Of a stretch of 64,000 bases of DNA, positions 4,716 to 28,133 are shown one piece after another. Numbering within the stretch: the first letter of the stretch is position 1; every line of letters starts with the position of its first letter. The position numbers and the translations under genes are program-made. This DNA is from Massilia sp. Root133 (GTDB lineage: Bacteria; Pseudomonadota; Gammaproteobacteria; Burkholderiales; Burkholderiaceae_D): positions 270,429-334,428 of the forward strand of contig NZ_LMEW01000035.1 of assembly GCF_001426525.1 (NCBI RefSeq), read 5' to 3'. The notes beneath the pieces were generated by a model, which saw only the letters and a list, made by a program, of their open reading frames with translations, did no database searches and was not told the DNA's origin.

Positions 4716-4862
4716 TGTAGCGGATGAAAAAAAATGTCACTTTGCGACTTCGTAAGTCACTGATTTAACAAGTACCTACAAGCGACCGACTGCGGAAAAC
4801 TCTCACTGAGGACGTAAAACTTTCATACCCTTGATCGGGAGACGGATGAATAAAACTGTCAC
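4716..4862. repeat. Transposon left end with three putative TnsB sites
   Basis: Three 17-bp related repeats lie in the same orientation: 4724-4740 (ATGAAAAAAAATGTCAC), 4790-4806 (CTGCGGAAAACTCTCAC) and 4846-4862 (ATGAATAAAACTGTCAC). They are spaced about 66 and 56 bp apart, like the dispersed TnsB sites of the Tn7 left end. The terminal TGT is at 4716-4718. Confidence 0.8.
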
Positions 4863-4935
4863 AGCACGTGGTGTCGCGTTCGCTTGCGGTCCTTCGCCTG
4901 CCATGCCAGCGGACCTATTAGCTGAATAAGAGCGC

Positions 4936-5259
4936 CTAACAAAACCGCTCGACATATCGCCAACAGATGAGCGAGCAAGCGAGCGAAAGGAACGCCTGAT
5001 GGATGTCGGCTCGTCGCTCATGCCGGATGCGCAATCTGCGAAAGCGGTGTAGCCATCCTAGGGTGCGCTCAACGACCCAACGCCATCGGCCGAGCCTTTC
5101 ACGCGACTCCACGCCGCGTCGCGCGATACGTGCTGCGATGCCTCGGCGGCGCAGCCAAACGCGATGTGCTCGTGACGCATACGCTTGATCGGCGTGCAGC
5201 TTACCTGGACGTTTGCGCGCACGACCTATGACTGCTCCTGGCCGGTTTCGGCCGTTCAA
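4936..5259 (-). pseudogene. IS5-family transposase, C-terminal remnant
   Basis: About 107 codons match the end of IS5-type DDE transposases. KLHADQAYASRAHR precedes the RRRGIAARIARRG block, followed by the ERLGRWRWVVERTLGWLHRF motif that carries the catalytic Glu, and LICWRYV near the end. The upstream two thirds, including the first two catalytic Asp residues, are absent. The frame is closed by stops just upstream of 5259. It cannot be functional. A shorter related fragment lies at 33131-33235. Confidence 0.85.
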
Positions 5260-5304
5260 GCCAGCACGTCATCTTGCCGAGCGGGAAATTTCGAGCGTGC
5301 TAAA

Positions 5305-6378: not shown

Positions 6379-6617
6379 TATGTTCCTTTTTTGGGTAGCA
6401 AATTATCGGCGGACCCTCAAGTTAGCCACGGCTAGTGATCCGTTTGAAGAGCATGTCAGGTGTCCGCTTCTGGCCGGTTGCGGACGTTCGGACCGGCTCA
6501 GTGTACGCCCTTGTTGCTCTGAGGACAAGAATAGGTTTTGTTAGGCGCTCTAAGCACTGCTTGCATTGGTTAGTAAGGCTCGCTACCATTTTTCATCTCT
6601 CGCCTTTAGGAACAACG

Positions 6618-7376
6618 ATGACAGTGTGTTTTGTAGCCCAGTTCGGCCCAATATGCGTTGCTGCTGCTGACACCCGGATTTCAGGAGCTTTGGATGATTC
6701 CCTGCCAAGCTATATCTGGGACGCTGCCGATATGCCGATTACGACGCCGACAGGTGAGTACTGTCTTGTCCCAATTCGGTTTCGAAAAATCCGGCAGATA
6801 GGCCGTGGATGGGCTGTTTCGGCAGGTTCTCACACGAAAGGAAAGCGTGCGCTCGATATGCTTTGTAGCGAAGCAGCTTTCGGTGTAGATCAGGTGACAG
6901 ACGTCCTCAATCACATGAGCGGCGATATCAAGACTGAGCCAGGCAGTCCACGCTCGGTTGAAGAGGACCTGTCCTTCATATTGGGTGTCTCCGTCGAAGC
7001 AAGCGGCAGAGGTGTTTGGTGCGCATCGAATAACGATCCCGCATCCTATGCCGTTTCCGATAGCATGCAATTTGCTATCAACTGGCCTACGTCAATTGCT
7101 CCTGAGCTTGGCGCTAATGCGACCGATGTGTTCAAAAAATCGTTGGACCCTTTCAGGGGTGTCGCATCTATCGTCCGGAGCGCAGCGAGACTGATTGGCG
7201 CGGCTCAATCAGCGCCCGATTGCAGCCCTGTTGCCCAAATTGGTGTTACTTGGATGGTCAGCGACGCCGAATACCAGACCCGGTATATCGCTGGCAATGT
7301 CGACGAGCTGTCCCACGCGACAAACGATCAAATTCAGGAGCTATGGGAAGTTCTGCCGACCCTGTTACCCTCCTGA
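6618..7376 (+). CDS. Proteasome-like Ntn-hydrolase family protein (putative)
   Basis: I place the start at ATG 6618 (AGGA about six bases upstream). The longer frame from 6435 crosses the IS5 end and is not credible. The 252-residue product begins M-T-V-C-F-V-A with AAADTRIS following. Counting the Thr as residue 1, the Asp is residue 17, as in the Thr1/Asp17 pair of proteasome beta and HslV subunits. A basic FRKIRQIGRG stretch then WAVSAGS may correspond to Lys33 and the glycine loop. If so, removal of Met would expose a catalytic Thr. Substrate and role are unknown. It sits between the IS5 cassette and tnsD as transposon cargo. A second protein of this type is encoded at 36141-37013. Confidence 0.6.
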   Translation: MTVCFVAQFGPICVAAADTRISGALDDSLPSYIWDAADMPITTPTGEYCLVPIRFRKIRQIGRGWAVSAGSHTKGKRALDMLCSEAAFGVDQVTDVLNHMSGDIKTEPGSPRSVEEDLSFILGVSVEASGRGVWCASNNDPASYAVSDSMQFAINWPTSIAPELGANATDVFKKSLDPFRGVASIVRSAARLIGAAQSAPDCSPVAQIGVTWMVSDAEYQTRYIAGNVDELSHATNDQIQELWEVLPTLLPS

Positions 7377-7402
7377 TATTGCGAGCTCGACAATGAGGAA
7401 TC

Positions 7403-9025
7403 CTATTTATCCATAAGATGACAAGCTTCCCGTTGACGAAAGGAAGCTGCTGTCTCAGTATATTGTTGAATTGTGGAGATGGCTGCGGGACAGTAAGGCT
7501 TCTTAAAGAGACGTTCAACGCTGATCTCGGCGATCTCAAGAATACGATTTGCCGTTGCTCTTTTTGGAGGAGTCTGCATGAGTAGGAATTTTGCGGCTTC
7601 TTCTATTCTTTTTGCGAGATCTTCATCATACGATTTTTCGGCTAAGTTGCCTCTTTTCTTTGCAAGATTTTTCGCATTTTGCAAACGGCTAGCGAATCTT
7701 GCATCCTCTAGGCATCTCCGAGTTGGTCGCGAGTCATAGCTCGCTTTTAAAATTTTGCTTACGGTTCCTTCGTTTATCTGAAGACGTTTTGCAATTTCGA
7801 CATTTTGCAATCCCTGAAGCTTTAACTCGCGCAAAGTTCTTATAAAAATGTCTCCAAATTCAAATACTTTTTTCGCTGTGGGCTCACTGCGAAAATTCCA
7901 ATTTTCGGAGTTGATATAAAAGTGGTAGCCGCAATTGCATTTGAATACCACTCCTCTACTTTTTTCAAAATCTTTCGTTACGTGAACATCGGTTATGATC
8001 CGCTGTCCAAAATGAGGCGCCGCAGGGTTCTGGCACTTCCAAGCCCGCTTTTTGATTTCTTCTTGTACATATTTTTTGTTCCTAACGTGAGTGCAGCGGG
8101 GGATAACGAAATCTTGATAGAATAGTTGAGTCGCTACATGTTTTATCGGGATCCATCTTGCGCTGAAAATGTCTCTTATCCAGTCGATTCTGTTATCTTG
8201 ACTAAGTGGAATGCCAAGTATTTCAAGGCACTGTTCTCCAAAATGCTGCATAAAATCTCTCCTAATGCTTATGATATTCAGGAAAGAGCCAAGTGCATAT
8301 AAATCACGAAACGCTTTCGGAGGCGATTTTCTTGTGATCGCTCTGTCATGGATAATTGATCCATCTAAATATTGACGGGCCAGGCAAGCAATTTCAAATA
8401 GCCTTTGCCTCGACCTCTCGGAGAGGTAAGGCAGATAGGGGTGCGTAACGACCTGAGGCGTTAAAGCACAGATAGATTTTCTAATACCAGTAGATACTAC
8501 TGCTTCTAGAAGTGGCGTTACGTGTTTTTCGCAGAAGTGAACACAGTCCAGTTGATGTGTCCGATGCCAGTAGCTTTCACCAAAGCGTGCAACGTCTTCG
8601 TTGATGCACCTTTGGCATACTTTCATTCTGATAACCGGCGGTTCCCGTCCTCCAATGCTGTGTCGACCTCGTAAACCTTGACGCTGTTGAAGCATCTTTC
8701 TTAAGATCCGAACTTTAGTATCTTTGTTGGCAAAAGCCGTGTGATAAGGATATAAAGTCGCTTGAAAAACCAGTTCTTCCAACGACAGTCCTATAAAAGG
8801 TTCAATAATGTTATGAAGATCTTGCAGCCCCCTTGGTAGCGTGATCGATGTATGGAATCGAGCTTTGCCGTAAAGCTCTTTATTAACATGTGCATCAAAA
8901 CTTGCCATCGTGTGAACGCGATACCGAGCGACAGCGCTTCCCAAAAGCTCATCAGGGTATAGCTTGGGAAAGTATCCTATAGTCATAGCATATTTTGCGA
9001 GAAACAGGTCAAGCTGTTCGGTCAA
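7403..9025 (-). CDS. tnsD: TnsD/TniQ-family target-selection protein
   Basis: The 540-residue protein opens with the TniQ signature GYFPKLYPDELLGSAVARY (about residues 17-35). A zinc finger follows at C137-x2-C140 ... C165-x2-H168 with the YWHRTHQLD segment between. In Tn7 systems TnsD binds a specific chromosomal site and recruits TnsC-TnsAB. The long C-terminal half beyond the zinc finger, with a helix-turn-helix-like LQNVEIAKRLQINEGTVSKIL segment, would read the DNA. As the only TniQ protein here, it presumably recognises imuA. It is the last gene of the tns operon, 49 bases after tnsC. Confidence 0.88.
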   Translation of the reverse strand: MTEQLDLFLAKYAMTIGYFPKLYPDELLGSAVARYRVHTMASFDAHVNKELYGKARFHTSITLPRGLQDLHNIIEPFIGLSLEELVFQATLYPYHTAFANKDTKVRILRKMLQQRQGLRGRHSIGGREPPVIRMKVCQRCINEDVARFGESYWHRTHQLDCVHFCEKHVTPLLEAVVSTGIRKSICALTPQVVTHPYLPYLSERSRQRLFEIACLARQYLDGSIIHDRAITRKSPPKAFRDLYALGSFLNIISIRRDFMQHFGEQCLEILGIPLSQDNRIDWIRDIFSARWIPIKHVATQLFYQDFVIPRCTHVRNKKYVQEEIKKRAWKCQNPAAPHFGQRIITDVHVTKDFEKSRGVVFKCNCGYHFYINSENWNFRSEPTAKKVFEFGDIFIRTLRELKLQGLQNVEIAKRLQINEGTVSKILKASYDSRPTRRCLEDARFASRLQNAKNLAKKRGNLAEKSYDEDLAKRIEEAAKFLLMQTPPKRATANRILEIAEISVERLFKKPYCPAAISTIQQYTETAASFRQREACHLMDK

Positions 9026-9074
9026 TCTCTTCTAACTGTGTAGAAAACCCGATCGGCTTTTGATTGCGGCCTGC

Positions 9075-10433
9075 CTATTTATTAATTTTGTTATCGTCCC
9101 TTTTTAAGGAGGAAAGCAGTTGCTGTAAATTTTCGCTACCGCTCCACTTTCTTGAACTGGAAAAACTAGCAGTGTCGACCTCAGGCATAGTAAGATCCCC
9201 ATAGCGGGCAAGCTTCGAGTAGTTTCCTGAAGCTAGTGCCTCAACCATAGGGGCGACACGCGTTAGTTCTTCGTTGGCCACAACATGAATCATATCAACT
9301 GTAATCTCCTCAGCCTTGCAGTCGATCGCCCGTCGTTGCACATATTGATAAAGCTTTACTGCTAGGTCCAGAACACCTTGGGTACGTTCGTACATCGCTT
9401 CATTTAGCTTTTCTGTTAACGCTGTGGGAGTTCTCGTCCACTGATACTTCCACATGCATTTTAAGAAATGATCCCATTCCTCATCCTTCTGGTGGTTTCG
9501 TAACAGGGCTCCGATCGTGCGCCTAGCTTGCCGAAAGTCAGATTGAAGCATTTCAAGACTCGACATCGTTCCGATGAGTACAACTGGTGCGACAGAAGTA
9601 TTAACAAAACGAACTAGGAAGTTCAAAAATCTCTGTTCGCCAGCCGTGCCAGAAGCTGCTTTGGCATGCTGTATCTCGTCAATCACAATGAGGCCGATTC
9701 CGAAAAGATGGGCAGCTGCATTGATCTCACGAATCAGGTCTTCAACCGTCATCTTGCGTTTTGTAAAACGTATTTCGTATGAGGTATTAGCTATCTTGTC
9801 GAGCTCGTTGAAAAAGTTCATCGCCAGTTGTCGAACAGTTCCGTTATAGGGACATTCGACTATGATGTAGGGAATTTGGTGCATTCGTAACTGAGGGTGC
9901 CAAATCAATGACGGGAATTGGGCTAGCCCGCGGCGTGTCAGTCGTGATTTCCCTACTCCAGATACGCCGATGATAGCGTAGGAATCGCACATTGGATCGG
10001 TGTCTGGAACCTGCTCGACTATATCGAGCTGCTGGCGTTTTAAATACGACTGCTGCAGGAATTGCTTGAACGCCGGAGAGGATGGGTTACGATTCACATA
10101 GCCGCTACGGACCATTTCACTAAGTGTTTGAGCAATTGAGTTTTGCTCTGTAAGCGGTTCATAGAAGCGCTTGAGTCGAAGCATAAGGTGCTTGCGTATA
10201 TGATCAGGCTTTTCACGTTCGAGCGGATCGTACGCCGGACGATTAGTCATCAATGTTGCAAGCTGCTTGCTTGAAGGGATAGGGCCTAATGCTTCGATAA
10301 ATTCATTTCCTACATATTCAGAGATTTCGCTTCGTGTATAGCGGGCGACGACATGTTTGAGCCCAGTCCTTTGCATGTCGTAGGCCTGTCGCGAATCGTT
10401 TAACTTCTTCTCAGTGTCAGAAGTGGAAGCCAT
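9075..10433 (-). CDS. tnsC: TnsC AAA+ ATPase transposition regulator
   Basis: The 452-residue AAA+ protein has Walker A GVSGVGKS (residues 156-163) and Walker B GLIVIDEIQ (D252/E253). A sensor region VAPVVLIGTMSSLEML follows. TnsC connects the target-bound TnsD to the TnsAB transposase and carries out target immunity in Tn7. It is in the size range of Tn7 TnsC-type proteins rather than the shorter TniB. It lies 95 bases downstream of tnsB in the same orientation. Confidence 0.92.
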   Translation of the reverse strand: MASTSDTEKKLNDSRQAYDMQRTGLKHVVARYTRSEISEYVGNEFIEALGPIPSSKQLATLMTNRPAYDPLEREKPDHIRKHLMLRLKRFYEPLTEQNSIAQTLSEMVRSGYVNRNPSSPAFKQFLQQSYLKRQQLDIVEQVPDTDPMCDSYAIIGVSGVGKSRLTRRGLAQFPSLIWHPQLRMHQIPYIIVECPYNGTVRQLAMNFFNELDKIANTSYEIRFTKRKMTVEDLIREINAAAHLFGIGLIVIDEIQHAKAASGTAGEQRFLNFLVRFVNTSVAPVVLIGTMSSLEMLQSDFRQARRTIGALLRNHQKDEEWDHFLKCMWKYQWTRTPTALTEKLNEAMYERTQGVLDLAVKLYQYVQRRAIDCKAEEITVDMIHVVANEELTRVAPMVEALASGNYSKLARYGDLTMPEVDTASFSSSRKWSGSENLQQLLSSLKRDDNKINK

Positions 10434-10528
10434 TTTCTTGAGAAAAGGTGCGTAACCGTGTCCTGCAATTGAGCTATAAGAAATTAAGTAATGGCACTAT
10501 TTTGATCAGGTTGGTGAGCTAGGTTCGC

Positions 10529-12706
10529 TTATGTTCCCGATTTGTCGTCATCGGTAAATATGGGAATCCGGGCGTAAAGCTTAACTGGCGGGGCCTTGGA
10601 AGAAGAACAGTCGTGTTCAGTAGATTGCTGGGGCGCTGTAGCAACATTTCTATCGGCATCTAAGAGCCTGTGTAGCGTCTTCTCGACTTGTCTATATGAG
10701 CGTATGTTCGAAATTCTTTCCTTTTTACTCCTTGTCGAGGGACCTAATTCCTTTTTCTCTGCCTCTGCAGACGCTGCGATATCTTCGATAGCCTTTTGAT
10801 GCGTGATCTTCGTGGCTATTGTGTCGTAACATCTGCTTGCATTAATTCTGGCTGCCTTATCTGTCCTAGCGATTACCTCTTCGACATATAAATCGAGGTC
10901 TGAACTGTCATTGCTGATCAACGTGCAACAGGTGAATTGATCCCGATATACCGGATCGTGCAGTAATACGGTATTCAGGTTGTGCGGATGATATGAAATC
11001 ACAACTTTAAAACGCCCTTTGCTCCGCGCTCTGCTAAACCAGGATCTTTTATCAAGTGCGGATGCATAATAATTTCGCCCTAGAAACGAGATCCCTTTTG
11101 CGGTTGCGCTGGCATTGGCCGTAGGTAAGAGGGCAAATAGAAGTTTGCTTTCCGAATGACGTACTAAACTTCCCATCCGGTTTTTTATTCCCCATGTCCA
11201 TAATTCATTCGGGATCGCCGGAATCCGTTGTGCCACCATAGCATTTTCCAGCGGATATCCTCCGACTGGTGTGACGTTGTGTTCAAGTACACAATGAATC
11301 GCTATCTTAGTGAATTCATGTAAATTTAAGCAGGCATCCAGTCTATAGTCCGGCCCTGTTCTTTGTCCGAAATCCTTATTAACGTAACCTTTCACGTCAG
11401 CAGCAAATTTTGCGGGCAGGAGCCGAAATTGTCTTTCTACAATTCCTTTCCAGTCAGCCCTGTATGGAGGTGTGTTTTCGACTTCGATACCAAGGACTTC
11501 AGCCAGTCTATCTGCTTGTTTCGAAAGCAGTTCACCCCGATCCCCCAATAGAACGCTGGAAAGTGGCGTCTCTGGCCATTCTTGAGGTTGGATATCTATG
11601 CCGAATTGTTTGCAGTAGTTGACTTTGTTTAACGTTACGTTATGGACGGCCATCATTGCTGTTGCCCAAGACGCGTTTTCTAAGCCAATATATAAGCCAA
11701 CGATCAGCCGCGACCAGACGTCGATAACAACGTACATTACAGGGCGGCCGACGATCGTGTCACGATCAATACGCGAAACCAGATAGACGTCGGCAATGGT
11801 CGCATCAATTTGATAGCGATAGCCTGGACCAATCGCTTCAAATGTACTATTTCCGAGTAGAGGTCGTAGTGTCTTCTCGAAATAAGTTTTGCCTTCCCTG
11901 GATTGAATTACGTCATATTCTGAGTTTTCTTTCTTGTGCCAATAAGTAAATTGCTGATAGGTCGGCACACCATCTGGATTTATTATCTCTATTTTTCCGT
12001 TTTCGTTCACTCGCGTGTTGCCGGAGTAGTACTGCCGAATCATTTTTAGATATGTGTACATCAGCGTTGCTTTCTTATTCTTTTTGTAAAATAGGTTTGT
12101 TGCTATCCGGATAATTCGTCGGTGCTCTTCTGATATATTTATTCCAGTTCCCGGGGTTTTAGATCGAGGTACACCTCGTTTGGCCTCTTCGATCTTTTCG
12201 CCTTCATCAGCCCTGATTAACTTCATCTTTGCTGGTTTTGGTTTGCCGGGGGCGCCGCAGTTCTTTCGTTTCCCGAAGAGAGCTGCGGAGGTGCAGCCCA
12301 TTTGCCAATACTCGTTCAACCAGTCGCGAATGCTATCAATATGACACCCTACTTCTCTTGCGCGAGAGTTGATTTGCTGGTTTCGGTGGCTTGATTGAAA
12401 AATGGCGGGAATGTCTTTAGTCAGGGGTTCAATTGCGGCCCAAGCTTTAGCTTTGCGAGCCCTCATCGCATCGGTCAAGGCATGGTTGAATGGAAGGTCT
12501 AGATATGGATCCTCGATTATTTCGAGCGTCCCCTCGGCTAGCATATTCAACCAGTCGCTATGCTTGGATAGAATTGGAGCGCAGCGTCGACCCCGTAGAG
12601 TTACGGAAGCTAGGAGGTCTTTTTCAACGGATACATAGAGAATTCGCCGTCGTTCCTCGTCGGCAGACAGGCGTACTACGGTATTTTTTAGAAAAACGTC
12701 CATCAT
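10529..12706 (-). CDS. tnsB: TnsB DDE transposase
   Basis: The 725-residue protein is the strand-transfer subunit. The catalytic triad can be placed at D301 (YQIDATIAD), D389 (SVLLGDRGE) and E424 (GIVERQF). The spacings of 88 and 35 residues equal those I recall for Tn7 TnsB (D273, D361, E396). N-terminal helices would bind the end repeats. Its start is three bases past the tnsA stop, indicating tight co-translation. The protein seems intact. Confidence 0.94.
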   Translation of the reverse strand: MMDVFLKNTVVRLSADEERRRILYVSVEKDLLASVTLRGRRCAPILSKHSDWLNMLAEGTLEIIEDPYLDLPFNHALTDAMRARKAKAWAAIEPLTKDIPAIFQSSHRNQQINSRAREVGCHIDSIRDWLNEYWQMGCTSAALFGKRKNCGAPGKPKPAKMKLIRADEGEKIEEAKRGVPRSKTPGTGINISEEHRRIIRIATNLFYKKNKKATLMYTYLKMIRQYYSGNTRVNENGKIEIINPDGVPTYQQFTYWHKKENSEYDVIQSREGKTYFEKTLRPLLGNSTFEAIGPGYRYQIDATIADVYLVSRIDRDTIVGRPVMYVVIDVWSRLIVGLYIGLENASWATAMMAVHNVTLNKVNYCKQFGIDIQPQEWPETPLSSVLLGDRGELLSKQADRLAEVLGIEVENTPPYRADWKGIVERQFRLLPAKFAADVKGYVNKDFGQRTGPDYRLDACLNLHEFTKIAIHCVLEHNVTPVGGYPLENAMVAQRIPAIPNELWTWGIKNRMGSLVRHSESKLLFALLPTANASATAKGISFLGRNYYASALDKRSWFSRARSKGRFKVVISYHPHNLNTVLLHDPVYRDQFTCCTLISNDSSDLDLYVEEVIARTDKAARINASRCYDTIATKITHQKAIEDIAASAEAEKKELGPSTRSKKERISNIRSYRQVEKTLHRLLDADRNVATAPQQSTEHDCSSSKAPPVKLYARIPIFTDDDKSGT

Positions 12707-12709
12707 AGA

Positions 12710-13546
12710 TCAGCAATTGGCATGCAGTTTCGGATGAATTTTGATGTCTGAAATCGGAGTATTCCATATTTGTTCACGGTTTAGATTAGTCAATAGCATG
12801 CGCGTGGAGAGCATGTGTCGAGCGATCATGAGGTGAGAGCCTGGCTCGTATGTAAGGTGTTTGTCGAGCAGCGTGCATATTTCGCAGAGCGTTATATCAA
12901 AGGCGTGAGAGGTGGCGACACAAATTAGTATGTGCTTGGCAAGAGCATCAAAGTGTCCCGGGTAAGGCTCTATAAATTTTGAGATATCGTGGTACTGCCT
13001 AAGCCATTGCAAACTGCGCTTTAGGTGAACTGGGATATCGTGCTCCGTTAGTACCTTAAAAGAAATGTTTTTCTCCGTCCAATACGCCTCCTCAATTTCT
13101 AGTTTTTCTCCCACACGTGTTTTTTGAAGCTGACTAGCCGGCTTAATTGAAAACGCTTTGTGGGTTGGGCTTGCTCTATTTCTGTAGGTAATTACAAGAT
13201 CTGTAGTCATTACAGAATAGGTATTACTTTTTGGGTCTTTGGGATGCCGGTAGCCGAGGCGCGATGCAATGATCATCGTTTCGTCGCGATTTAAGGCGAA
13301 CTGCTCTCTAATATCAATGACTGAGTCGTCCATGTCGAACGTCAGATAATGTGCGTATTCGATATCGGACAGCAGATGATGGACTCGACCACTTCGTTTT
13401 CCGTATACTCGATGCGATCGGCCAAGACTAGGTACATCGCGAACATAGAGATATGGAACGTAATTTTCCCCAATTCCTTTTCCGCGTCCTTTCCTCAGCA
13501 GCTCTTGAATGTCCGATTCGTTGCGTGTGTATTGTTTCTTTGCCAT
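12710..13546 (-). CDS. tnsA: TnsA endonuclease-like transposase subunit
   Basis: The 278-residue protein matches TnsA, which cuts the 5' ends so that Tn7 elements move by cut and paste. Expected active-site residues are present: E63 (LSDIEYAHYL), D116 (VMTTDLVITY) and K135 (AFSIKPASQ). These lie close to E63, D114 and K132 of Tn7 TnsA. It is the first gene of the tnsABCD operon. Having TnsA separates this element from TniABQ (Tn5053-type) transposons, which use replicative transposition. Confidence 0.93.
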   Translation of the reverse strand: MAKKQYTRNESDIQELLRKGRGKGIGENYVPYLYVRDVPSLGRSHRVYGKRSGRVHHLLSDIEYAHYLTFDMDDSVIDIREQFALNRDETMIIASRLGYRHPKDPKSNTYSVMTTDLVITYRNRASPTHKAFSIKPASQLQKTRVGEKLEIEEAYWTEKNISFKVLTEHDIPVHLKRSLQWLRQYHDISKFIEPYPGHFDALAKHILICVATSHAFDITLCEICTLLDKHLTYEPGSHLMIARHMLSTRMLLTNLNREQIWNTPISDIKIHPKLHANC

Positions 13547-14010
13547 TTTTCTCGCTTCTTAACCAAGTCGCTGCGCTGAGCCGTTTTGGACGTTTGGAAC
13601 CATGCGATTGCTGGCCAGCACATTCTAAGTGCCCCAAAAATAGTACTGACCGAAGATTTGGCCAAAAGTTTCTGGCATTTCTCATCTGGCAACGACGTGC
13701 TAGATTGAGGTGACATGTGTGACGCTTGAGTGCGAGGAACACCTGTACAAGGAAATATCTCTGCTGAACAAGACGTCCTTGCGGTGCAGGCGACGACTGC
13801 TGATGCGTAGCCCCTGCGCGTGCCGCAGCAGCGTCTGGCCGCAATCGTGCCGTCAGTTGAGATCCCCTGACCCGCCTGTAGTCTGCATGCGCTGTCCCCG
13901 ATGAGCATCACGTTGCTAGATGCATACGTATTGAGATACCTGTTCGTGCCTGCTTTGCTCGCGACATCAGGTCTGCGCGTCCATGCCTTGCTAAAACCTC
14001 ATCAATCATA
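13547..14010. promoter_or_regulatory. Divergent intergenic region between tnsA and imuA
   Basis: The roughly 460 bases must hold the tns operon promoter reading left. Short frames inside look like remnants rather than genes, and none begins with a good ribosome site. I saw no clear promoter box, repeat or RNA gene. The stretch near 13640-13720 may be debris of another mobile element. Confidence 0.35.
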
Positions 14011-14030
14011 TACTGTATGGGCATACAGTA
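14011..14030 (+). promoter_or_regulatory. LexA operator of transposon-borne imuA
   Basis: TACTGTATGGGCATACAGTA differs from the host imuA operator only in three central bases. It lies 14 bases upstream of the ATG at 14044. The element's copy is therefore expected to be SOS-induced by the host LexA. Confidence 0.9.
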
Positions 14031-14043
14031 TTGTGAGGCTGAT

Positions 14044-14748
14044 ATGCTACCTAAGATCCATTCGACGCCGGAGTCGATTCATCCGTCGCTATGGCGTGCC
14101 TCGCAGCTCGGTCGTTCGAGTACGCGTTGTGTTGACACTGGTTATCCTGTCTTGTCTGCACAGTTGCCGGGAGGAGGGTGGCCGACCAGCAGCATAGTTG
14201 AGTTGCATTTGCGGCAGCCAGGTACAGGCGAGCTGAGGCTTCTGCAGCCTGCTCTGGCAGCAGCTGGCAAGCGCCGGGTAATGATGATTCAGCCCCCACA
14301 CGTGCCGAATTCGATTGCGCTTGCTGCTATGGGACTAAATCCATCACAAGTCACCTGGGTGCAACCTGACCGCACAACTGACGCGCTCTGGGCCGCAGAA
14401 CAGGTCCTCCGAAGCGGTGGATGTCACGCTCTTTTGTTTTGGCCGGGTCATATTCGAAATGAGAGCCTGCGACGTTTGAGTTTGGCGGCTGCAGATGGAG
14501 AGAGTCTTTTCTTTTTGTTCCGTCCACTTGCCGCATCGCAGGATGCTTCGCCGGCGCCGCTTCGTCTTGGGGTGCGGCCAGCGCTCGGAGGCGTCGAGAT
14601 CGACTTCCTGAAACGCCGCGGTCCACAGCGCGAAACGGCACTGTTCTTGCCATTATCTCCCTCTTTTGTTCATCGTCATGCGCTTGTGGATCGGACTGTA
14701 TCTACCCCAGCTCCCGCTCGAAGTCTTCGAACCGAGCTGGTCGAATGA
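14044..14748 (+). CDS. imuA: Transposon-borne ImuA, SOS mutagenesis factor
   Basis: The 234-residue protein is a full-length ImuA, starting at ATG 14044 behind GAGG. It aligns from HPSLWRASQLGRS through SAQLPGGGWPT, ALWAAEQVLRSGG, SQDASPAPLRLGVRP and FLKRRGPQRETA with the interrupted host copy. ImuA forms a mutasome with ImuB and DnaE2 for error-prone bypass of DNA damage. Around the transposon target the codons differ from the host (GCT CTT TTG TTT TGG against GCG CTG CTG TTC TGG) while encoding the same residues. Base composition is less GC-rich than the host gene, which argues for separate ancestry rather than recent duplication. Confidence 0.93.
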   Translation: MLPKIHSTPESIHPSLWRASQLGRSSTRCVDTGYPVLSAQLPGGGWPTSSIVELHLRQPGTGELRLLQPALAAAGKRRVMMIQPPHVPNSIALAAMGLNPSQVTWVQPDRTTDALWAAEQVLRSGGCHALLFWPGHIRNESLRRLSLAAADGESLFFLFRPLAASQDASPAPLRLGVRPALGGVEIDFLKRRGPQRETALFLPLSPSFVHRHALVDRTVSTPAPARSLRTELVE

Positions 14749-16159
14749 CAGCGTGACGGTTGTCGTCGAACGCGAGACAGTTCTTACGATGTCGCGCGGG
14801 GCGCGCATCGCTGGCGTCAAATCAGCTATGCGCCGCGGCGGTGTGTTGATGCTGGCACCTAATGCCCGGATCCACGAACGCACTGCTGCGCGGGAAGAGG
14901 GGGCGTTGCAGGCCATCGCGATTTCAATGCTCCAATACACGCCGCAGGTAACGCTCGCGGAAGAGTCAACGCTGTTGCTGGACATCGGCGCGAGCTTGCG
15001 GTTGTTTGGTGGTATACGGTCGTTACGTAGGCGAGTTTGCGCCGATCTCCGTAATCTAGGATTCACCGGGAGGTTGAGCTGCGCTCCAACTGCCCGGGCG
15101 GCGTGGATGCTCGCGCGAGCTGGGGGCGGCTGGGCTTTAAAGCAAGAGTCATCAGCGCGTGCGCTGAGCCGTCTCCCTGTAGTGGTCCTGCCGGCGGCGA
15201 GGGTTTTTGCCAGCTGGTTCGAGGGGATCGGCTGCGAGACGATCGACGACTTGCGGCGGTTGCCGCGCCCAGGTCTTCAGCGCCGGTGTGGCCGTGCGCT
15301 GCTGGATACTCTTGATTGTGCGTTTGGCAGCGCTCCAGAGATGTTCGAATGGGTTGAAGCGCCTGCGACGTTCGAAGCGAAGATGGAGCTGTTCGACCGC
15401 GTTGAGAATGCAGACCTTCTGCTAGCCAGTGCACAGCGCCTGGTGCTACAGCTGGTCGGCTGGCTTTGTGGAATGCAACTTGCAGCGGAGGGCATCAAGC
15501 TCAAGCTGGAACACGAGCGCGGCCGGGTCGCACGCGCACCAACTGAAGTGGAAATACTTCTTGCTGAGCCAACCTGGCATAGCGATCACATCGTGCGGTT
15601 GCTGAAGGAGCGGCTCGGAAAGCTGGTGCTGGAGGCACCAGTGATCGGGCTAGTCCTCCATACGACCAAGCTACAACCGATGGCACCTCCCACCGAGTCA
15701 CTTTTCCCTGAACCGGGCGGCACGGAGGAAGACCAGATACGCATGATCGAGCTGCTGGTTGCTCGCTTGGGTGAGGATAGAGTTCGCCAGGTGAAACCGG
15801 TGGCGGATTACCGGCCGGAGGTCGCCAACACGTGGGTTTCCATCCAGGAGAAGGTGCGGCAAACGACGGTCGCCGGCCAGCTGCCGCCGAACCTGAGCAG
15901 CATCCTCCGCCCAACTTGGCTGCTGGTGAAGCCGATTCCACTTCTCATGCGAAACCATAGGCCGTTCTATGGCTCGCCGCTGCGGATGGTGTCCGGGCCG
16001 GAGCGTGTCGAGGCGGGGTGGTGGGGAGGTACGGTTGCCAGGGACTATTGGGTTGCGGAAGGCGAAGAACATACCTTGTACTGGGTCTATCAGGAGCGAG
16101 GTCGCAGCACCAGTGAGGACCCAGAATCACGCTGGTTCCTCCATGGGTTGTTTGGGTAG
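14678..16159 (+). CDS. imuB: Transposon-borne ImuB, Y-family polymerase-like protein
   Basis: I place the start at ATG 14678 (MRLWIGLYLPQLPLEVF), giving 493 residues. A start at 14666 would add four. It overlaps imuA by 71 bases, exactly the overlap seen between host imuA and imuB. ImuB resembles Y-family DNA polymerases but lacks catalytic acidic residues. It acts as the hub that links ImuA, DnaE2 and the beta clamp. The C-terminus ends WFLHGLFG, as in the host copy. No dnaE2 follows, so a host-encoded DnaE2 elsewhere must be used. Confidence 0.93.
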   Translation: MRLWIGLYLPQLPLEVFEPSWSNDSVTVVVERETVLTMSRGARIAGVKSAMRRGGVLMLAPNARIHERTAAREEGALQAIAISMLQYTPQVTLAEESTLLLDIGASLRLFGGIRSLRRRVCADLRNLGFTGRLSCAPTARAAWMLARAGGGWALKQESSARALSRLPVVVLPAARVFASWFEGIGCETIDDLRRLPRPGLQRRCGRALLDTLDCAFGSAPEMFEWVEAPATFEAKMELFDRVENADLLLASAQRLVLQLVGWLCGMQLAAEGIKLKLEHERGRVARAPTEVEILLAEPTWHSDHIVRLLKERLGKLVLEAPVIGLVLHTTKLQPMAPPTESLFPEPGGTEEDQIRMIELLVARLGEDRVRQVKPVADYRPEVANTWVSIQEKVRQTTVAGQLPPNLSSILRPTWLLVKPIPLLMRNHRPFYGSPLRMVSGPERVEAGWWGGTVARDYWVAEGEEHTLYWVYQERGRSTSEDPESRWFLHGLFG

Positions 16160-16564
16160 CGAGTGCAGTCGACCGCTGCGGTGACAGTTGTGCAATGGTG
16201 ATTTTGCTCTGCTTGTAATCCTATCGAAAGCGGAGCGATTCAGTGAATCTCGGCTAGCAGGCCGCCGCTGTTGATGAAGGCAAATCGACGCCAGGCAGCG
16301 TGACACGCTCCCTGGCTGGCAACGCCATTCCAGCCCAGCCGCAGGTTTGCACCACAACCATTCCTCTTAGGAAAACAAGTTTTATAGAGCAGTCAGAAGC
16401 CGGGGCGAGACCGCGTCGCACGCTTCGGTTCGATCAAAACAGTGTGGATGCCCTTGAGTACAGTGGCGAACGGGTCCGGCCGCGCTCATTTACCAGACGG
16501 TACCGAGGCCATCGCTGTCTAACTTCCATCGCTTCAATGAGCGGTGCTTTTGATTATGCCTCCC
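16160..16564. other. Intergenic stretch without recognised features
   Basis: About 400 bases separate imuB from the Sel1-repeat gene. Only short frames without family resemblance are present. The AT-rich region just before 16565 probably carries the promoter of the Sel1 gene. I saw no terminator, repeat or RNA gene. Confidence 0.4.
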
Positions 16565-18292
16565 ATGACTACACGCACCTTAATCGCTTATTTAATTGCA
16601 ACCATTGTTGGTCTTGCCCCTCACGCTAACGCTAGTGTCAGCGAGGCAGATGCCGCGTACAGGCGCGGCGACTTTGTTACTGCGCTTAGAGAGCTTGAAC
16701 CATTAGCCAAGCAGGGCGATTCAGCAGCACAGACTAAGCTCGGGCTTATGTACGCCGAAGGACAGGGCGTGCCGCAAGACTACAAAGAAGCGCTCAAGTG
16801 GTATCGACTGGCTGCCGACCAAGGGAACTCTTCGGCACAATACGATCTCGGGTTTATGTACGCCAACGGACAGGGTGTGCCGCAAGACTACAAAGAGGCG
16901 GTCAAGTGGTACCGACTGGCTGCCGACAACGGGGACACTGATGCTCAAAACAACTTGGGGATTATGTATGCCAAAGGACAGGGCGTGCCGCAAGACTACA
17001 AGCAGGCGGTCAAGTGGTACCGGCTAGCTGCCGACCACGGGAACTCTTCGGCACAGCTCAACCTCGGGTATATGCACGCCAAAGGACGGGGTGTCCCGCA
17101 AGACTACAAGGAGGCAGAAAAGTGGTTTCGACTAGCCGCCGATCAGGGGGACTCTTCGGCACAACATAACCTCGGGCTTATGTACGCTGAAGGACAGGGC
17201 GTGCCGCAAGACTACAAGGAAGCGGTCAAGTGGTTTCGGCTGGCTGCCGATCTGGGGGAATCTCATGCTCAAGGCAAACTCGGGTATATGTACGCCAAAG
17301 GACAGGGCGTTCAGGAAGACCACAAGGAAGCGGTCAAGTGGTTTCGGCTGGCTGCCGATCAAGGGGACGCTTATGCTCAAGACAGCCTCGGAGCTATGTA
17401 CGCCACAGGACAGGGTGTGCCACAAGATCACAAAGAAGCGGTGAAGTGGTACCGGCTGGCTGCAGACCAGGGTAGGACTTTGGCACAACTCCACCTCGGA
17501 TTTATGTACGACAAAGGACAGGGCGTGCCACAAGACGACAAGGAAGCGGTCAAGTGGTACCGACTGGCTGCCGACCAGGGGGATTCGGCGGCCCAATTTA
17601 ACCTCGGGAACATGTATGCCAAAGGACGAGGCGTGCCGCAAGATTACAAGGAAGCGGCCAAGTGGTACCGACTGGCTGCCGACCAAGTCGACGCCGATGC
17701 TCAAAACAACCTCGGGGTTATGTACGAGCAGGGACAGGGCGTGCCACAAGACCACAGGGAAGCGGCCAAGTGGTATCGGCTGGCTGCTGACCAGGGGAAC
17801 TTTGTGGCGCAAAAAAACCTCGGAGCTATGTATGATCGAGGGCTGGGCGTACCCCAGAGTCAGGTCATTGCATATGCTCTTTTGAATCTCGCTGCCGCGA
17901 ACGATCCCTCGAACAAGACTGACTCTGCAAATATCCGAACCGATTTAGCAAACCAGTTGACGCACAGTGAGCTTGAGCGAGGCCAGGATTTGACCAGAAA
18001 AATGCGCTCATTAGCCAGTGTCTCGAAAGTCCTGATTTGGTACATGAGCCAACACGCAAGCAACGAATCAAAAAAGGTTCTGCGGAACACTAGCATGCCC
18101 AGCACTGGATTTCACGGCGATCCCTACCCTGCACGTCCAGACAAAGTTCCGGGAGTGACGAGCTGCCGCACCAATTGCACGAATGCCTCTTGCTATCGCA
18201 CATACGACGACGGCCGGAAAGTGCACTTTTTCGCAAAGCAAAAATGGAACCCGTTTACTAACCAGTTTGAATTTGATTCTGGTACGTGCTGA
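16565..18292 (+). CDS. Secreted Sel1-repeat protein
   Basis: Starting from ATG 16565, the 575-residue protein has a signal peptide (TRTLIAYLIATIVGLAPHANA). Eleven Sel1-like repeats of 36 residues follow (consensus AQNNLGxMYAKGQGVPQDYKEAVKWYRLAAD, shown here as a pattern only). A Cys-containing C-terminal domain of about 110 residues ends DSGTC. Sel1 repeats are protein-interaction solenoids often found in secreted or periplasmic proteins. The repeats are nearly identical at DNA level (108-bp units over about 16700-17850), so copy number may vary by recombination. Specific partner unknown. Confidence 0.85.
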   Translation: MTTRTLIAYLIATIVGLAPHANASVSEADAAYRRGDFVTALRELEPLAKQGDSAAQTKLGLMYAEGQGVPQDYKEALKWYRLAADQGNSSAQYDLGFMYANGQGVPQDYKEAVKWYRLAADNGDTDAQNNLGIMYAKGQGVPQDYKQAVKWYRLAADHGNSSAQLNLGYMHAKGRGVPQDYKEAEKWFRLAADQGDSSAQHNLGLMYAEGQGVPQDYKEAVKWFRLAADLGESHAQGKLGYMYAKGQGVQEDHKEAVKWFRLAADQGDAYAQDSLGAMYATGQGVPQDHKEAVKWYRLAADQGRTLAQLHLGFMYDKGQGVPQDDKEAVKWYRLAADQGDSAAQFNLGNMYAKGRGVPQDYKEAAKWYRLAADQVDADAQNNLGVMYEQGQGVPQDHREAAKWYRLAADQGNFVAQKNLGAMYDRGLGVPQSQVIAYALLNLAAANDPSNKTDSANIRTDLANQLTHSELERGQDLTRKMRSLASVSKVLIWYMSQHASNESKKVLRNTSMPSTGFHGDPYPARPDKVPGVTSCRTNCTNASCYRTYDDGRKVHFFAKQKWNPFTNQFEFDSGTC

Positions 18293-18473
18293 CTTCCAAA
18301 GGCTCGTAGCCCGCTCGAGGCTCGCTGATTTCGCTTGCCAACATCGATTTACTGAAGCTGTACCGGAACGATGTTAAGCGCACAACATACACGGCGAATA
18401 CGCAGATCAAGGTGCATGGCTTTCAAGCAGACTAATCTTGCCGGGCCTTTTAACGGAACATTAAGGAGCAACC

Positions 18474-19130
18474 GTGCATCTCACCAGGATCATACTTGGC
18501 ATCATCATTACTGCAAGCATCGGTAGCTGTGGCAAACGTGAAGCGTTCCCTCCCGCCGCAAGCAAACCCGCCGTGCCGGTACAGGCACAGGCAAGCGCAG
18601 CGCCGGCCGCGTTCGAGGCATCGACGCAATCTCCCGTTACGGCCAATGCGCAGCCTTACAACGCCTCGCCTTTGGGCCTGGAGATCGGCGTTGCCAACAT
18701 AGCTGGCGTCAAGGCTGCGCTGGGCACGCAAACGCGACTCGAAGCACGTGGAGAGAGCAGGTACAGCGGCGGGCCGATGCTGTGGTCAAACGGCGATGGA
18801 CTGGGCGTCGAGGGCTTGACAGACGCGCTGTTCCTCTTCGACAAAGATGGCGTGCTCGCCGGCGTAGTGATGACGGTACCGAAGAATCCGGTCGGCATGC
18901 TCAGCAAGCTATCAAGTAAGTACGTTACTGTTAGCAATAAGGTCGACAGCTTCATGGGCTACGGTTATGCGCGTCTGCAAAAAGGCGATTCGGTCGTGGA
19001 GATCGATTCCCCGCACTTGTCCTTCACGATGGAAGTCCGCTACCTGAGTAAAAAGCTGTTTGCAGACTTCGCCCGTATGATCGCCGAAGAGGAAGCCAAG
19101 AAGCAACAGGAACAAACCGACAAGCTCTGA
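18474..19130 (+). CDS. Putative lipoprotein of unknown function
   Basis: A GTG start at 18474 follows a strong AAGGAG site. The 218-residue product has a short hydrophobic leader ending ASIGSCG, a plausible lipobox with Cys19. Then comes an Ala/Pro-rich linker (residues 25-60) and a globular domain. The C-terminus is charged (EEEAKKQQEQTDKL). I do not recognise the domain. It stands alone between the Sel1 gene and the convergent T6SS module. Confidence 0.65.
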   Translation: MHLTRIILGIIITASIGSCGKREAFPPAASKPAVPVQAQASAAPAAFEASTQSPVTANAQPYNASPLGLEIGVANIAGVKAALGTQTRLEARGESRYSGGPMLWSNGDGLGVEGLTDALFLFDKDGVLAGVVMTVPKNPVGMLSKLSSKYVTVSNKVDSFMGYGYARLQKGDSVVEIDSPHLSFTMEVRYLSKKLFADFARMIAEEEAKKQQEQTDKL

Positions 19131-19187
19131 GCCGCATCCGCCGCCCCAAGGTGCAATTAATTGCCACTGCGCGGTCGGTCGAGACCG

Positions 19188-19448
19188 TCATATCGAGGAA
19201 ATCAACTTTGCACCGCAAGCCGTAAGGTCGTTGTCATACGCATACGGCCGGCCCATGTGTTTGGCGCCGGCACCGTCGGGCTTGATAGGAAACTTCCCTT
19301 TGCACTTGGGGCAGAAGGTGAGATCGTCGGCAAGCGCCGCTTCGGTACCCATTACGACAGTGCCGGATGAAACAGAAATAACTTGGCCACCGTGGTCCGT
19401 CTTGTCATTCAATCGAATTACGCCGCGCCCCTCATGCTTCATGTTCAA
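19188..19448 (-). CDS. PAAR-domain protein, T6SS spike tip
   Basis: The 86-residue protein is a single PAAR domain. It has the early GVIRLNDKTDHGGQV strand, SGTVVMGTEAALADD, and the closing Cys/His set (FCPKCKGKFPI, the KHMG His and TACG). PAAR proteins sharpen the VgrG spike of the type VI secretion system and can carry effectors. It is the last gene of the minus-strand module vgrG, pld effector, immunity candidate, paar. Confidence 0.85.
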   Translation of the reverse strand: MNMKHEGRGVIRLNDKTDHGGQVISVSSGTVVMGTEAALADDLTFCPKCKGKFPIKPDGAGAKHMGRPYAYDNDLTACGAKLISSI

Positions 19449-19544
19449 TCACCTCCCGATGCTAATTGATGTCCGGCCCGTCACGTGCGCTGCCCAAGGC
19501 AACAGAGTGGCGCGAGCGCGGCCTTTCGACATGGCCAGCGTGTG

Positions 19545-21164
19545 TCATTTCTCAGTCGGCTTATTCGCCTCCAGCAGGTGCCATTTCAGCTCGACACTGT
19601 CCAGCGGTAGCATCCAGTCGCGCTTGGGGTCCGGGAAGGATTGTCCTGCGGTTAGCCAGCGCTGCCGCCACGCTTGATTGACTTCCTGTTCCAGCGGATG
19701 GCCTGGCGCAAGCCATGGCTGCCAAGTTCCCGTGATCGGACACACTTTGTTCCCGGTGCATTCCACGGGCGGAGCTAACCGCGGAACTTGCCGGGACAAC
19801 CTCAGTGCCGTGCGCGGCGCGACCATGCCGCCATTGTTGTGGACGGTAAGCACGCGCTGCCAGACAATCCCGGCAATGGCCCCCTTTCCCGTGCGGCTCG
19901 GGTAGCGCGGCTGTTCGAATGCCTCGCCCCTGCTGTAGAGGCCAGGTGGAATTGTGGCCAGGAAGGCGCTTACCTCGGCGGATTCCTTTGGCGCTGTCGG
20001 TTGCCAGTAGCTGGCGAAAGGCGCCTGGAGCGCATCCGTCGTTTCCGCTACAGGCCGGAAGGCATAGGCGCTGTCGAGGAAGTAGCGTCCCTTCCTGAGC
20101 GAGGCTTCGGTCGGTGCCGGTGCCTCCGTCGCGGGCACGACGGCCATGGCTGCCGCGAGCAAGCTTTCCCGGGTGCCGTCCCAAGGCGGTAGTGGTGCCG
20201 GCGGCAGGGGCAGAATCTTGTCGAGGTTCGGGAAGCGACGGTCGGGGTTGAAGCCGAGTGCGTCACCAAGCATGTTGTAACGCTGGGCGCGTGCCTTGTC
20301 GATGAACGGCACGAACATGTCTTCTAGACTGCTCGGATCGCCGAACTCGATGGCCAATCTGTTTGCGCAGTACTCGCAGCCACCCCGCACGCCTTCGTGC
20401 AGGGCCCGCATTACGCGGTCGCGGGTTGCTCGGGTTTCCCTGCCGATTTCGGTTCCGTCGGGCGCCCTGGGTACTTCGTACATGGGCTTCATTTCGACGG
20501 CGGCCGGGCCGTAACCCTGGGCCAGCGCGCATTCAAGCATCTTGATCGCAATCGGGATATTGCCCCAGTAGCCCGGCTTTAGGTTGTCCGCACCCGCGTC
20601 CATCTTCTCGCCGAGGAAGGCCATCGCCTGCGGGTTGCCCATGGCGGCGGCCTTTTGGAAAAAGGCGTAGGCCCGGTCGGGATTGCCATTTACGCCCGTG
20701 GCGTTGAGGTAATAGGTGCCCATCCTGTCGTAGGCGGCCGGCACGCCCAGTTCCATGGCTTCGGACACCAAGGCCACCGCTTCGGTTTCGCCATGCGGCG
20801 GATCGTGCTTTTCCACGTACAGGCTGGCCAGGTTCAGCATTGCCTTCCAGTGATGCCGTTCGGCGGCCTGGCGGGTCAGCTGGACGACCTTCTTGTAATC
20901 CACATCGTCGACGTAGACAAAACCATCTTCCATCGCGCGCGCCTCGAGGAACCAGTCCTCGGCCTGGGCGTCGATCGGCGGTACCTTGCTCGCCTCCGTC
21001 TGGCATTCGAACGAGGCGATGTGCGGGTCGAACGGCGGCAGGGGTTGCATGTGGGGGGGAACCTTGGTCTTGTCCATGTTGCAGGCCACCAGGAAAGTGA
21101 GAGTCATCAGTAAGGTTGCCAAGTTGCGGCAACGCCGTGGAGGGAAATCGGCAAGGGTACGCAT
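19545..21164 (-). CDS. Sel1-type lipoprotein, probable immunity to the PLD effector
   Basis: The 539-residue protein has a lipoprotein signal peptide (LATLLMTLTFLVACN, lipobox Cys28). Sel1-like helical repeats occupy about residues 75-200. The C-terminal half looks like the DUF6396-type domain that I recall next to VgrG and lipase effectors. It begins three bases past the stop of the phospholipase gene. Placement and periplasmic export fit the job of protecting the producer from a periplasm-acting lipase. Immunity is an inference from context. Confidence 0.7.
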   Translation of the reverse strand: MRTLADFPPRRCRNLATLLMTLTFLVACNMDKTKVPPHMQPLPPFDPHIASFECQTEASKVPPIDAQAEDWFLEARAMEDGFVYVDDVDYKKVVQLTRQAAERHHWKAMLNLASLYVEKHDPPHGETEAVALVSEAMELGVPAAYDRMGTYYLNATGVNGNPDRAYAFFQKAAAMGNPQAMAFLGEKMDAGADNLKPGYWGNIPIAIKMLECALAQGYGPAAVEMKPMYEVPRAPDGTEIGRETRATRDRVMRALHEGVRGGCEYCANRLAIEFGDPSSLEDMFVPFIDKARAQRYNMLGDALGFNPDRRFPNLDKILPLPPAPLPPWDGTRESLLAAAMAVVPATEAPAPTEASLRKGRYFLDSAYAFRPVAETTDALQAPFASYWQPTAPKESAEVSAFLATIPPGLYSRGEAFEQPRYPSRTGKGAIAGIVWQRVLTVHNNGGMVAPRTALRLSRQVPRLAPPVECTGNKVCPITGTWQPWLAPGHPLEQEVNQAWRQRWLTAGQSFPDPKRDWMLPLDSVELKWHLLEANKPTEK

Positions 21165-21167
21165 GGT

Positions 21168-23207
21168 TCAACCGTAGCGTGTGGTCGAGCTTCGGCCATC
21201 GTCCAGCGGAACGATGAAGCCATCCATCTGCTTCTTCTTCGGGTCGGTTGACCGCGCCTTTTGTTTATCCTTGTTTTCGTTCATCAGGGTTACCCAATGA
21301 TTAAAGGTTTGTGCGATTTCCTGTGGCGTAGCATTTCCGCCGTCATATTTTGTGTACGGAGGCTGCTGTGACTGCGTGAGCTGCGACCAGATCCGTCTTC
21401 GCAGGGCAGTCGCATGACGCAGGTCGTTCGTGGCCAAGTTGATCTCGCTGTCCACAGCCATGCTGCGCTGATTCAGGTTCGCGCTGCCAAGCGTGAAAAA
21501 ACCGTCGTCGACCAGCAGCAACTTGGAATGGATATAGATTTCGCGGTAGCGCCACTGGCGGCACGCCTGGTTGAATTCGCATGCGTTGAGCACGGCGACG
21601 CATACGCGTAAGCCAAATGTTTTTTCGAGGATTAGTTTGGAAGGCTTGTCGATCTTGTTTGCCGCCACAACGACATCGGAAAGCGCTTGCGTCGCGCTCG
21701 TACTTGCCCGCCTGTCTGCCGCATCCTCGAAAAGCGCCTGCTTTGGCTGCGCATTGGCCTGTTCGATCATCTTGACCTGGCCGGTCATACCGCCCTGCTG
21801 GCCCAGCGTCGCCAAGGTGTCGTAGGTGCGGGGTATCATCTCCGCCATTTCAGGTGCCGGAATAACGACAAAGACGTGCATGATCGGCAAGTCCTCGGTG
21901 CCCTTGCCGATCTTCGCGCAGCTGCGCTTCCACCCTGCGATCACGTTTTTTCGGATCGCCAGCAAGTGCTCGGCCCAGTCCTGGTATTGGAAATACTGGT
22001 TTTCCATGTACAGGTAGCCCGTGCCCCCGGCGGCCACGCGGGTCGCGTTGAAGTAGATGTCCTTGATCGTGAAGTCCTTTTCCTCGGGCTGGGTCCTGAC
22101 GATCTGCACCGTCGAATCGCCGCTTGCGGCTTTGCGCAGCAGGGCGGACGGCGGCTTGTCGCACATATATTGGCTGGCCTTCATATCGCCACCCGCGCGC
22201 GCCCAGGCCCGCTCGAAATTCTCATGGATCGGTATCAGTGCCCGGCCGCCTTCGATGCGGCAAGCGTAGTCACGGTAGGGCTTCAAGGTCTCGAAGTCGA
22301 AATTGCCGTCGACGCCCTGCGCATGCTCCTTCTTCGTCTTGGCGGCGCCTTGTTCTCGCAACGGATTCTCGACGCCATGTTCGGGGGTGTCCCAGTAGTC
22401 GGTAAGGGAGTTCAGGCCCATGACGTAAGCGACCGCTTTCTTGCCGTCGTCATAGGCGAAGTCGATCAGAATCGGCTTTTGATGATGAGTCCCGGCACCT
22501 ACCTCCAACCCGTACTCGGCGCCATCAGGCTTTCTCGTCTCTTGGCCAAGCGATTTTGCGATGCTGCCGACATCGCCGTCACGCGTGCGAATGGTGATGC
22601 CCTGCAGCCGGCCGGCAAATGCCGCTTTGTACCAGCTGCAGCAATACTCCTCCCTGGCCATGGCCGCGAGCTTGTCGCCTGAAAGGTTCCATTCCTTCTT
22701 GTGGCGGTTATTCCGCGCATGCTCTTGTATCTGTTGCAGGCTGCGCTTGGAATCGATTTGCTGGACTTCCACGTCGCTATCATGGATGCGCCAGGGACTC
22801 GTTCCATGCGTGTGCCCCGGCATATGCTTCTGTTTTTTGCCGCCGAGATAGCTGTACCAGACCAACAGCCGGACCTGCACGCCCCGCCTTCCAGCAGCAA
22901 TCAGGAGGTCGCCATAAGTCTCGGCCCGCGGCCAGTTGTATCCATTGCGTACCAGTTCCATTCCGGGATCGAATCCCCAGCACACCAGGTCGATACTGCC
23001 TTTCGCTTCCTGGATGTCCTTGGCGATGGCGGCGAAGCCCTCCTTGCCACAGAAATGAAGGCTGAGCTTGTTATTGTGCGTAATGGGATGGGTGGCGTTC
23101 CCCTTCGTGTTCTTGTTCTCCGCAAACCACTGGACGGTGCTTGTCGCATTGCAACTGACTTCGTCGATGTGAACCGTTTCCGTTCGCAGATAGTTTTCAG
23201 AGCCCAT
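21168..23207 (-). CDS. Phospholipase D-family T6SS effector (Tle5-like)
   Basis: The 679-residue protein carries two HKD motifs of the phospholipase D superfamily. The first is HHQKPILID in the middle. The second is IHSKLLLVDDGFFTLGSAN near the C-terminus. No signal peptide is present, as expected for an effector loaded on VgrG. Tle5-type effectors hydrolyse membrane phospholipids of rival cells. The gene follows vgrG by 28 bases and precedes its probable immunity gene by three bases. Confidence 0.87.
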   Translation of the reverse strand: MGSENYLRTETVHIDEVSCNATSTVQWFAENKNTKGNATHPITHNNKLSLHFCGKEGFAAIAKDIQEAKGSIDLVCWGFDPGMELVRNGYNWPRAETYGDLLIAAGRRGVQVRLLVWYSYLGGKKQKHMPGHTHGTSPWRIHDSDVEVQQIDSKRSLQQIQEHARNNRHKKEWNLSGDKLAAMAREEYCCSWYKAAFAGRLQGITIRTRDGDVGSIAKSLGQETRKPDGAEYGLEVGAGTHHQKPILIDFAYDDGKKAVAYVMGLNSLTDYWDTPEHGVENPLREQGAAKTKKEHAQGVDGNFDFETLKPYRDYACRIEGGRALIPIHENFERAWARAGGDMKASQYMCDKPPSALLRKAASGDSTVQIVRTQPEEKDFTIKDIYFNATRVAAGGTGYLYMENQYFQYQDWAEHLLAIRKNVIAGWKRSCAKIGKGTEDLPIMHVFVVIPAPEMAEMIPRTYDTLATLGQQGGMTGQVKMIEQANAQPKQALFEDAADRRASTSATQALSDVVVAANKIDKPSKLILEKTFGLRVCVAVLNACEFNQACRQWRYREIYIHSKLLLVDDGFFTLGSANLNQRSMAVDSEINLATNDLRHATALRRRIWSQLTQSQQPPYTKYDGGNATPQEIAQTFNHWVTLMNENKDKQKARSTDPKKKQMDGFIVPLDDGRSSTTRYG

Positions 23208-23235
23208 GAGATCCCCTGTTCAGTTCGCTGCCAAT

Positions 23236-27323: not shown

Positions 27324-27354
27324 AATACCTTCGACCCTGGAAAATGCACGTGCA

Positions 27355-28095: not shown

Positions 28096-28133
28096 ACGAA
28101 CACAGCCCCGACGCCAAAGATGTCAAGTCGATT

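Follow-up and report, generated by a model that had tools for sequence, protein, structure and literature searches.

Tn7-like transposons of the TnsD/TniQ type are known for a tnsABCD gene set, multiple TnsB-type end sites, a 5-bp target site duplication, CBASS defence cargo and insertion at a favored position within a conserved gene, and the available text of Benler et al. 2021 (PMC8649781) describes safe sites at which insertion does not damage the attachment site. Insertions that break a conserved gene are represented by Tn6022, which uses TnsF, and the Tsy elements in comM, for which the accessible part of the source mentions no carried replacement gene (Faure et al. 2023, PMC10293859). 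Mobile imu genes have been described as imuABC cassettes on a plasmid, where they are under LexA control (PMC4151985), and on an ICE (PMC7466150); these cassettes include imuC/dnaE2 and, in the available portions of both papers, are not linked to a broken host copy. GInts carry at one end ginABCD, three tyrosine recombinases plus a small gene, and have a short, AT-rich opposite end, 10-11 nt imperfect direct repeats, and outward promoters that spare target expression, and the accessible sections say nothing of GInts that bring along an entire copy of the gene they break (Bardaji et al. 2017, PMC5385486). Our literature search, which left most subscription journals outside its reach, found no paper joining Tn7-like elements and imuA, and no self-compensated case was noticed in the accessible parts of the papers, which included PMC10293859, PMC8649781, PMC5385486, PMC10214605, PMC4151985, PMC7466150 and PMC2864759. 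The element described here shares the Tn7-like features listed above, but it cuts its target mid-gene and carries an operon homologous to the one it breaks.

Anatomy of the element and the operon that it interrupts

The window, which is the whole stretch of DNA analyzed here, comprises 64,000 nt of Massilia sp. Root133 (GCF_001426525.1, NZ_LMEW01000035.1, positions 270,429-334,428, forward strand). On the basis of a 5-bp direct repeat, matching ends and an empty site in two relatives, we delimited a Tn7-like element of 34,920 bp (4716..39635) with the termini TGT..ACA, flanked by the target site duplication GCTGC on the left (4711..4715) and on the right (39636..39640). The empty site was found in the close relatives G685 and G709, in which the flanks are contiguous and 94-96% identical. 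A repeated sequence that resembles ATGAATAAAACTGTCAC occurs in two spaced copies (about 4726 and 4849) in the left end (4716..4865, plus strand) and in three close copies (about 39573, 39593 and 39614) in the right end (39560..39635, minus strand), and is absent elsewhere in the first 45 kb scanned; judging from this layout, the repeats are probably TnsB sites.

All four transposition genes lie on the minus strand and encode the tnsD/tniQ target selector (7403..9025; Pfam TnsD 1.3e-26, TniQ 9.7e-17), the tnsC AAA ATPase (9075..10433; AAA_22 and TniB), the tnsB transposase (10529..12706; Mu-transpos_C) and the tnsA endonuclease (12710..13546; TnsA N and C domains), with every Pfam match above the cut-off, and these homologues together with the repeated end sites and the 5-bp duplication mark the element as Tn7-like. 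The window TnsB is 37% identical to the TnsB of a tnsABCD cluster with identical gene order in another genome (G596). Close relatives of TnsD were found neither in viral contigs nor in the genome_contigs set; identities were only 22-25% among the 30 of 172 plasmid matches listed, the best other genome of the family reached 36% over the N-terminal part only (matches in 3 other genomes of 294), and, for full-length alignments, the best of the order reached 27% (matches in 16 other genomes of 399). The first-pass annotation had proposed a survey of related elements for the tnsABCD and imuAB arrangement, and this survey, with TnsB searched in plasmids and seven genus genomes and TnsD more widely, came back without a second such element.

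The cargo, also on the minus strand, includes a CBASS operon with a cyclase and Cap15 (28922..30690) and another with a DncV-like cyclase and a patatin effector (37036..39468), so that one Tn7-like element houses two different CBASS operons, as well as genes for VgrG and a PLD-domain protein (21168..25989). VgrG genes also occur in the island of genome G714 described below (L146 11919-14726, with a hydrolase and a Tli4-like gene), and a VgrG-like match adjoins the right end in G691 (L137 9004-11439). An IS1595-type transposase gene at 6-914 lies outside the element.

The element lies within the native imu operon, all parts of which are on the plus strand: the LexA-type box TACTGTATGTTTATACAGTA (4283..4302), a 5' fragment of imuA (4319..4715) that is interrupted after codon ~132, a 3' fragment of imuA (39641..39954), and imuB (39884..41371). 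It had been claimed from the sequence that the element breaks host imuA and cuts host imuB from its SOS promoter, and both claims hold, as the two imuA fragments and the duplicated GCTGC flank the insert and the intact imuB now lies 34.9 kb from the LexA box. The native imuB of the window exhibits no relaxed selection (dN/dS 0.08-0.19, as in relatives). The gene for the partner polymerase dnaE2/ImuC is intact, with a 72% match in a 1074-aa open frame that lies outside the element on the same contig (G000:C35:336868).

The carried imuA-imuB operon and its lineage

Next to tnsA and on the plus strand, the element carries a LexA-type box TACTGTATGGGCATACAGTA (14011..14030), imuA (14044..14748; NCBIfam NF033429, 225.5 bits with a cut-off of 150) and imuB (14678..16159; Pfam IMS). 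We consider 14044 the likelier imuA start because the ATG at 14017 falls inside the LexA box. An intact imuA-imuB behind a LexA-type box and with a host-like overlap, as first annotated, was indeed present, and imuA and imuB overlap by 71 bp in both the element and the host operon. The motif CTGTN8ACAG, the LexA box of beta/gamma-proteobacteria according to the available text of PMC4151985, matches the window only at TACTGTATGGGCATACAGTA and TACTGTATGTTTATACAGTA (0.85 matches expected from base composition), and both boxes also match the longer TACTGTN8ACAGTA, for which the composition of the window predicts 0.0014. Within the window, no LexA-type box lies near tnsA besides that of imuA itself. 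The carried module has no dnaE2; it combines overlapping genes for ImuA and a Y-family ImuB with a LexA box, the arrangement of an ImuA-ImuB SOS cassette, with dnaE2 elsewhere in the genome.

We refer to the lineage of the carried genes as T. T ImuA (at least 92% identity) occurs in 3 of the 62 genus genomes, namely that of the window, Telluria aromaticivorans ML15P13 (G204) and Massilia sp. BSC265 (G697), the imuA copies of the latter two being 92-93% identical to the carried one, and all three lie inside a broken native imuA. A scan of the genome_contigs set with two N-terminal patterns matched only ML15P13 and BSC265, and viral contigs contained no T ImuA. The carried ImuB and the native ImuB share 65% identity. 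An ImuB tree with 56 rows, 48 of them native, groups the three T copies in a clade (100/100), two of the three (L065, L066) being read as T from their placement with the window copy. This clade falls outside the one (97/88) that holds 47 natives; the one other native sequence (L054) and the ImuB of the WG5 plasmid branch at one unresolved fork with the T clade. The T genes have a GC3 of 0.52-0.70, vs 0.90 for native imuB, and pairwise dN/dS among the three T copies is 0.05-0.10 at a dS of 0.53-1.06 (0.08-0.10 for imuB alone). Because of the tree position, the GC3 and the dN/dS, T looks like an old, functional lineage rather than a recent duplicate of the host gene. As to the concern that the operon might be a non-functional chance relic, the carried genes are under strong purifying selection, and the lineage was found only in broken native imuA genes (3/62), both in favor of the replacement proposal. 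We also considered a recoded target site and rejected it, as the carried imuA shows no particular divergence at the targeted position: T-to-native relative to native-to-native identity is 0.69-0.73 at the target and 0.66 at the lowest point elsewhere, and the natives themselves vary at the target.

The surroundings of the T copies differ, with just about 2.2 kb in common with the element. In ML15P13, the native imuA runs to codon ~90 and is followed by the T operon, a DDE transposase gene, an ice-binding protein gene and an RND efflux operon, beyond which native imuB survives only as its final ~32 codons; the T box is intact and the native box is off consensus. In BSC265, the native promoter with its LexA box precedes a leader frame of 81 aa that terminates 7 nt ahead of the T imuA start, and the box of T imuA itself lacks its left half. 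Downstream of this T operon are an arsenic cluster and a native imuA remnant that is uninterrupted across the insertion site of the window, while native imuB is lost. The arsenic cluster shares 84.6% identity over 4,570 bp with a cluster beside the right end of the element in genome G681, which hints that the BSC265 island may descend from a G681-type element, but the break lies elsewhere in imuA. We found no tns genes or Tn7 ends in either genome. Both have kept the carried imuB, and little or nothing is left of their native imuB.

Insertions with and without a carried copy

An island in G714 breaks the other gene of the operon. This 18-kb insert, bordered by the 7-bp repeat GAGCGCG, interrupts native imuB near codon 281 and leaves native imuA intact. 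One end of the island has four consecutive ORFs of 489, 625, 683 and 126 aa, of which only the first has integrase matches, below the cut-off, and is probably a tyrosine recombinase; homologues of the first two are adjacent in several plasmids among the matches listed. This four-ORF end resembles the ginABCD operon, judged from the available text on GInts (PMC5385486), and the carrying of a copy of the broken gene would set the island apart from them. We regard it as GInt-like by this resemblance and as unrelated to the Tn7-like element. A Tn7-like end sequence, for which no partner was found, is present within the island (L146 8284-8308). The other end carries imuB behind a LexA-type box (69% identity to T, 65% to native, GC3 0.57), with a 13-codon ORF between the box and imuB, which we read as an imuA stub, and without a full imuA. 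In line with the first-pass argument that carrying both genes suits a polar insertion in imuA, this island hits imuB alone and brings imuB without full imuA.

Tn7-like ends were also found in imuA without a T copy. In G681, a Tn7-like insertion with the duplication CCGTG lies 1 nt from the site of the window, in the diverged imuA of a second imuA-imuB-dnaE2 cassette; this makes the attachment site reproducible, with two insertions known. Neither a T copy nor a TnsB match was found in the G681 genome. The dnaE2 match of its second cassette (L124) is in two pieces. In G291 and G691, right-end-like sequences (2 and 3 mismatches, respectively) lie directly against codon ~178 of imuA, the gene being a second copy in G291 and a remnant in G691; about 49 kb and 60 kb of the two genomes yielded neither left ends nor tns genes. 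Codon ~178 is a second Tn7-like insertion point common to the two genomes (L140 19730-19900, L097 9600-10080). The native operon is intact in G681, G291 and G691, and T-lineage imuAB is nowhere in these genomes. These three cases come close to what the first-pass annotation named as refuting, elements in imuA that never carry imuAB, although the broken genes are second copies or remnants. A foreign imu gene is carried in 4/4 cases in which an insert breaks the native operon vs 0/3 in which another copy is broken (Fisher p=0.029), a comparison of a small sample in which it is not proven that the ML15P13 and BSC265 islands arose by transposition.

With 3 mismatches allowed, the right-end pattern occurs in 5/62 genus genomes, among them G714, where the match lies within the island, and reversed controls gave 0. 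The exact right-end/imuA junction occurs in 2/62 genus genomes and in 1/399 genomes of the order, the latter being that of the window itself in a sample without G681. G113, G689 and G706, with contig edges in imuA or imuB, were left out of the count, and a split operon in G710 was rejected because its contigs overlap by 20 bases. The native imuB of G701 matches in several pieces within 1.5 kb (L180 5572-7049), with imuA intact, no insert and no second copy; it is perhaps a decaying gene and was not counted as insert-broken. Outside the genus, 28 of 294 sampled genomes were re-examined because they had additional or low-scoring copies, and no split imuB with a carried copy was found in them; fragments or broken frames were seen in G151, G146, G153 and G238.

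Probable compensation of the broken SOS operon

We think it probable that the insertion is self-compensated, i.e., that a TnsABCD-type transposon targets imuA and brings its own LexA-controlled imuA-imuB as a substitute. The transposon would take imuA as its attachment site and inactivate the host SOS translesion cassette by inserting there, and the carried imuA-imuB would assume the lost function with host dnaE2 acting in trans. The carried genes would accordingly be expressed and functional in this host, and compensation would be the reason for their retention; an old mobile imuAB lineage held functional by selection would allow elements to land in the SOS operon, after which the native imu genes could decay. 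The first-pass proposal that the carried operon replaces the broken one is favored by the selection on T, its restriction to broken imuA, the loss of native imuB and the G714 island; the T-less Tn7-like ends in imuA speak against it, as do the frequency of imuB on plasmids, the failure of the survey to find a second tnsABCD-imuAB element, the absence of tns genes and Tn7 ends from ML15P13 and BSC265, the unrelaxed selection on the native imuB of the window and the uninterrupted imuA remnant of BSC265, and the proposal stands in part. Its corollary, that the insertion is harmless or beneficial, would follow from such a replacement.

It is less likely, in our estimate, that the carried imuAB is ordinary mobile cargo, kept for adaptation of the element or host, with the landing in imuA unrelated. 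Such cargo does exist: imuB matches occur in 672 of 72,556 plasmid records, and, in the accessible parts of these papers, a plasmid-borne LexA-controlled imuA2B2C2 drives hypermutation (PMC4151985) and an ICE-borne imuABC cassette is reported with no sign of a broken host copy (PMC7466150). Against ordinary cargo stand the T copies found only inside broken native imuA (3/62 genus genomes) and the island that breaks imuB and brings imuB without full imuA, and the carried module is without dnaE2, whereas dnaE2 follows imuB in two of the three plasmid regions inspected (the third, from Massilia sp. WG5, has no dnaE2 beside imuB). We give still less credence to the idea that the operon is the relic of an earlier insertion next to an imuAB operon, captured through use of a distant right end and without a role in tolerance of the present insertion. 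In Tn7, the right end and the target lie beside tnsA; here the carried operon directly adjoins tnsA, and 26 kb separate tnsA from the right end. However, TnsB-type sites are absent from the stretch between tnsA and imuA, no relic right end adjoins tnsA, and T copies under purifying selection occur in different surroundings that share about 2.2 kb with the element.

Returning to the self-compensated insertion, we offer more tentatively, as a possibility a little short of even, that the strategy is convergent, with a Tn7-like transposon and a GInt-like island both landing in the SOS operon, each with a matched LexA-controlled replacement that displaces the native genes. If so, a hit in imuA goes with carried imuA-imuB and a hit in imuB with carried imuB alone, and the second, unrelated island carrying the gene that it breaks makes the principle testable. 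The success of transposons is usually credited to sites whose loss costs little, while this element seems to render a harmful site safe via a working substitute. The substitute may eventually be the sole copy of the host, with the stress-induced mutation machinery then supplied by a mobile element, and, if replacements oust the native genes, damage-induced mutagenesis of the host would pass to mobile-element lineages.
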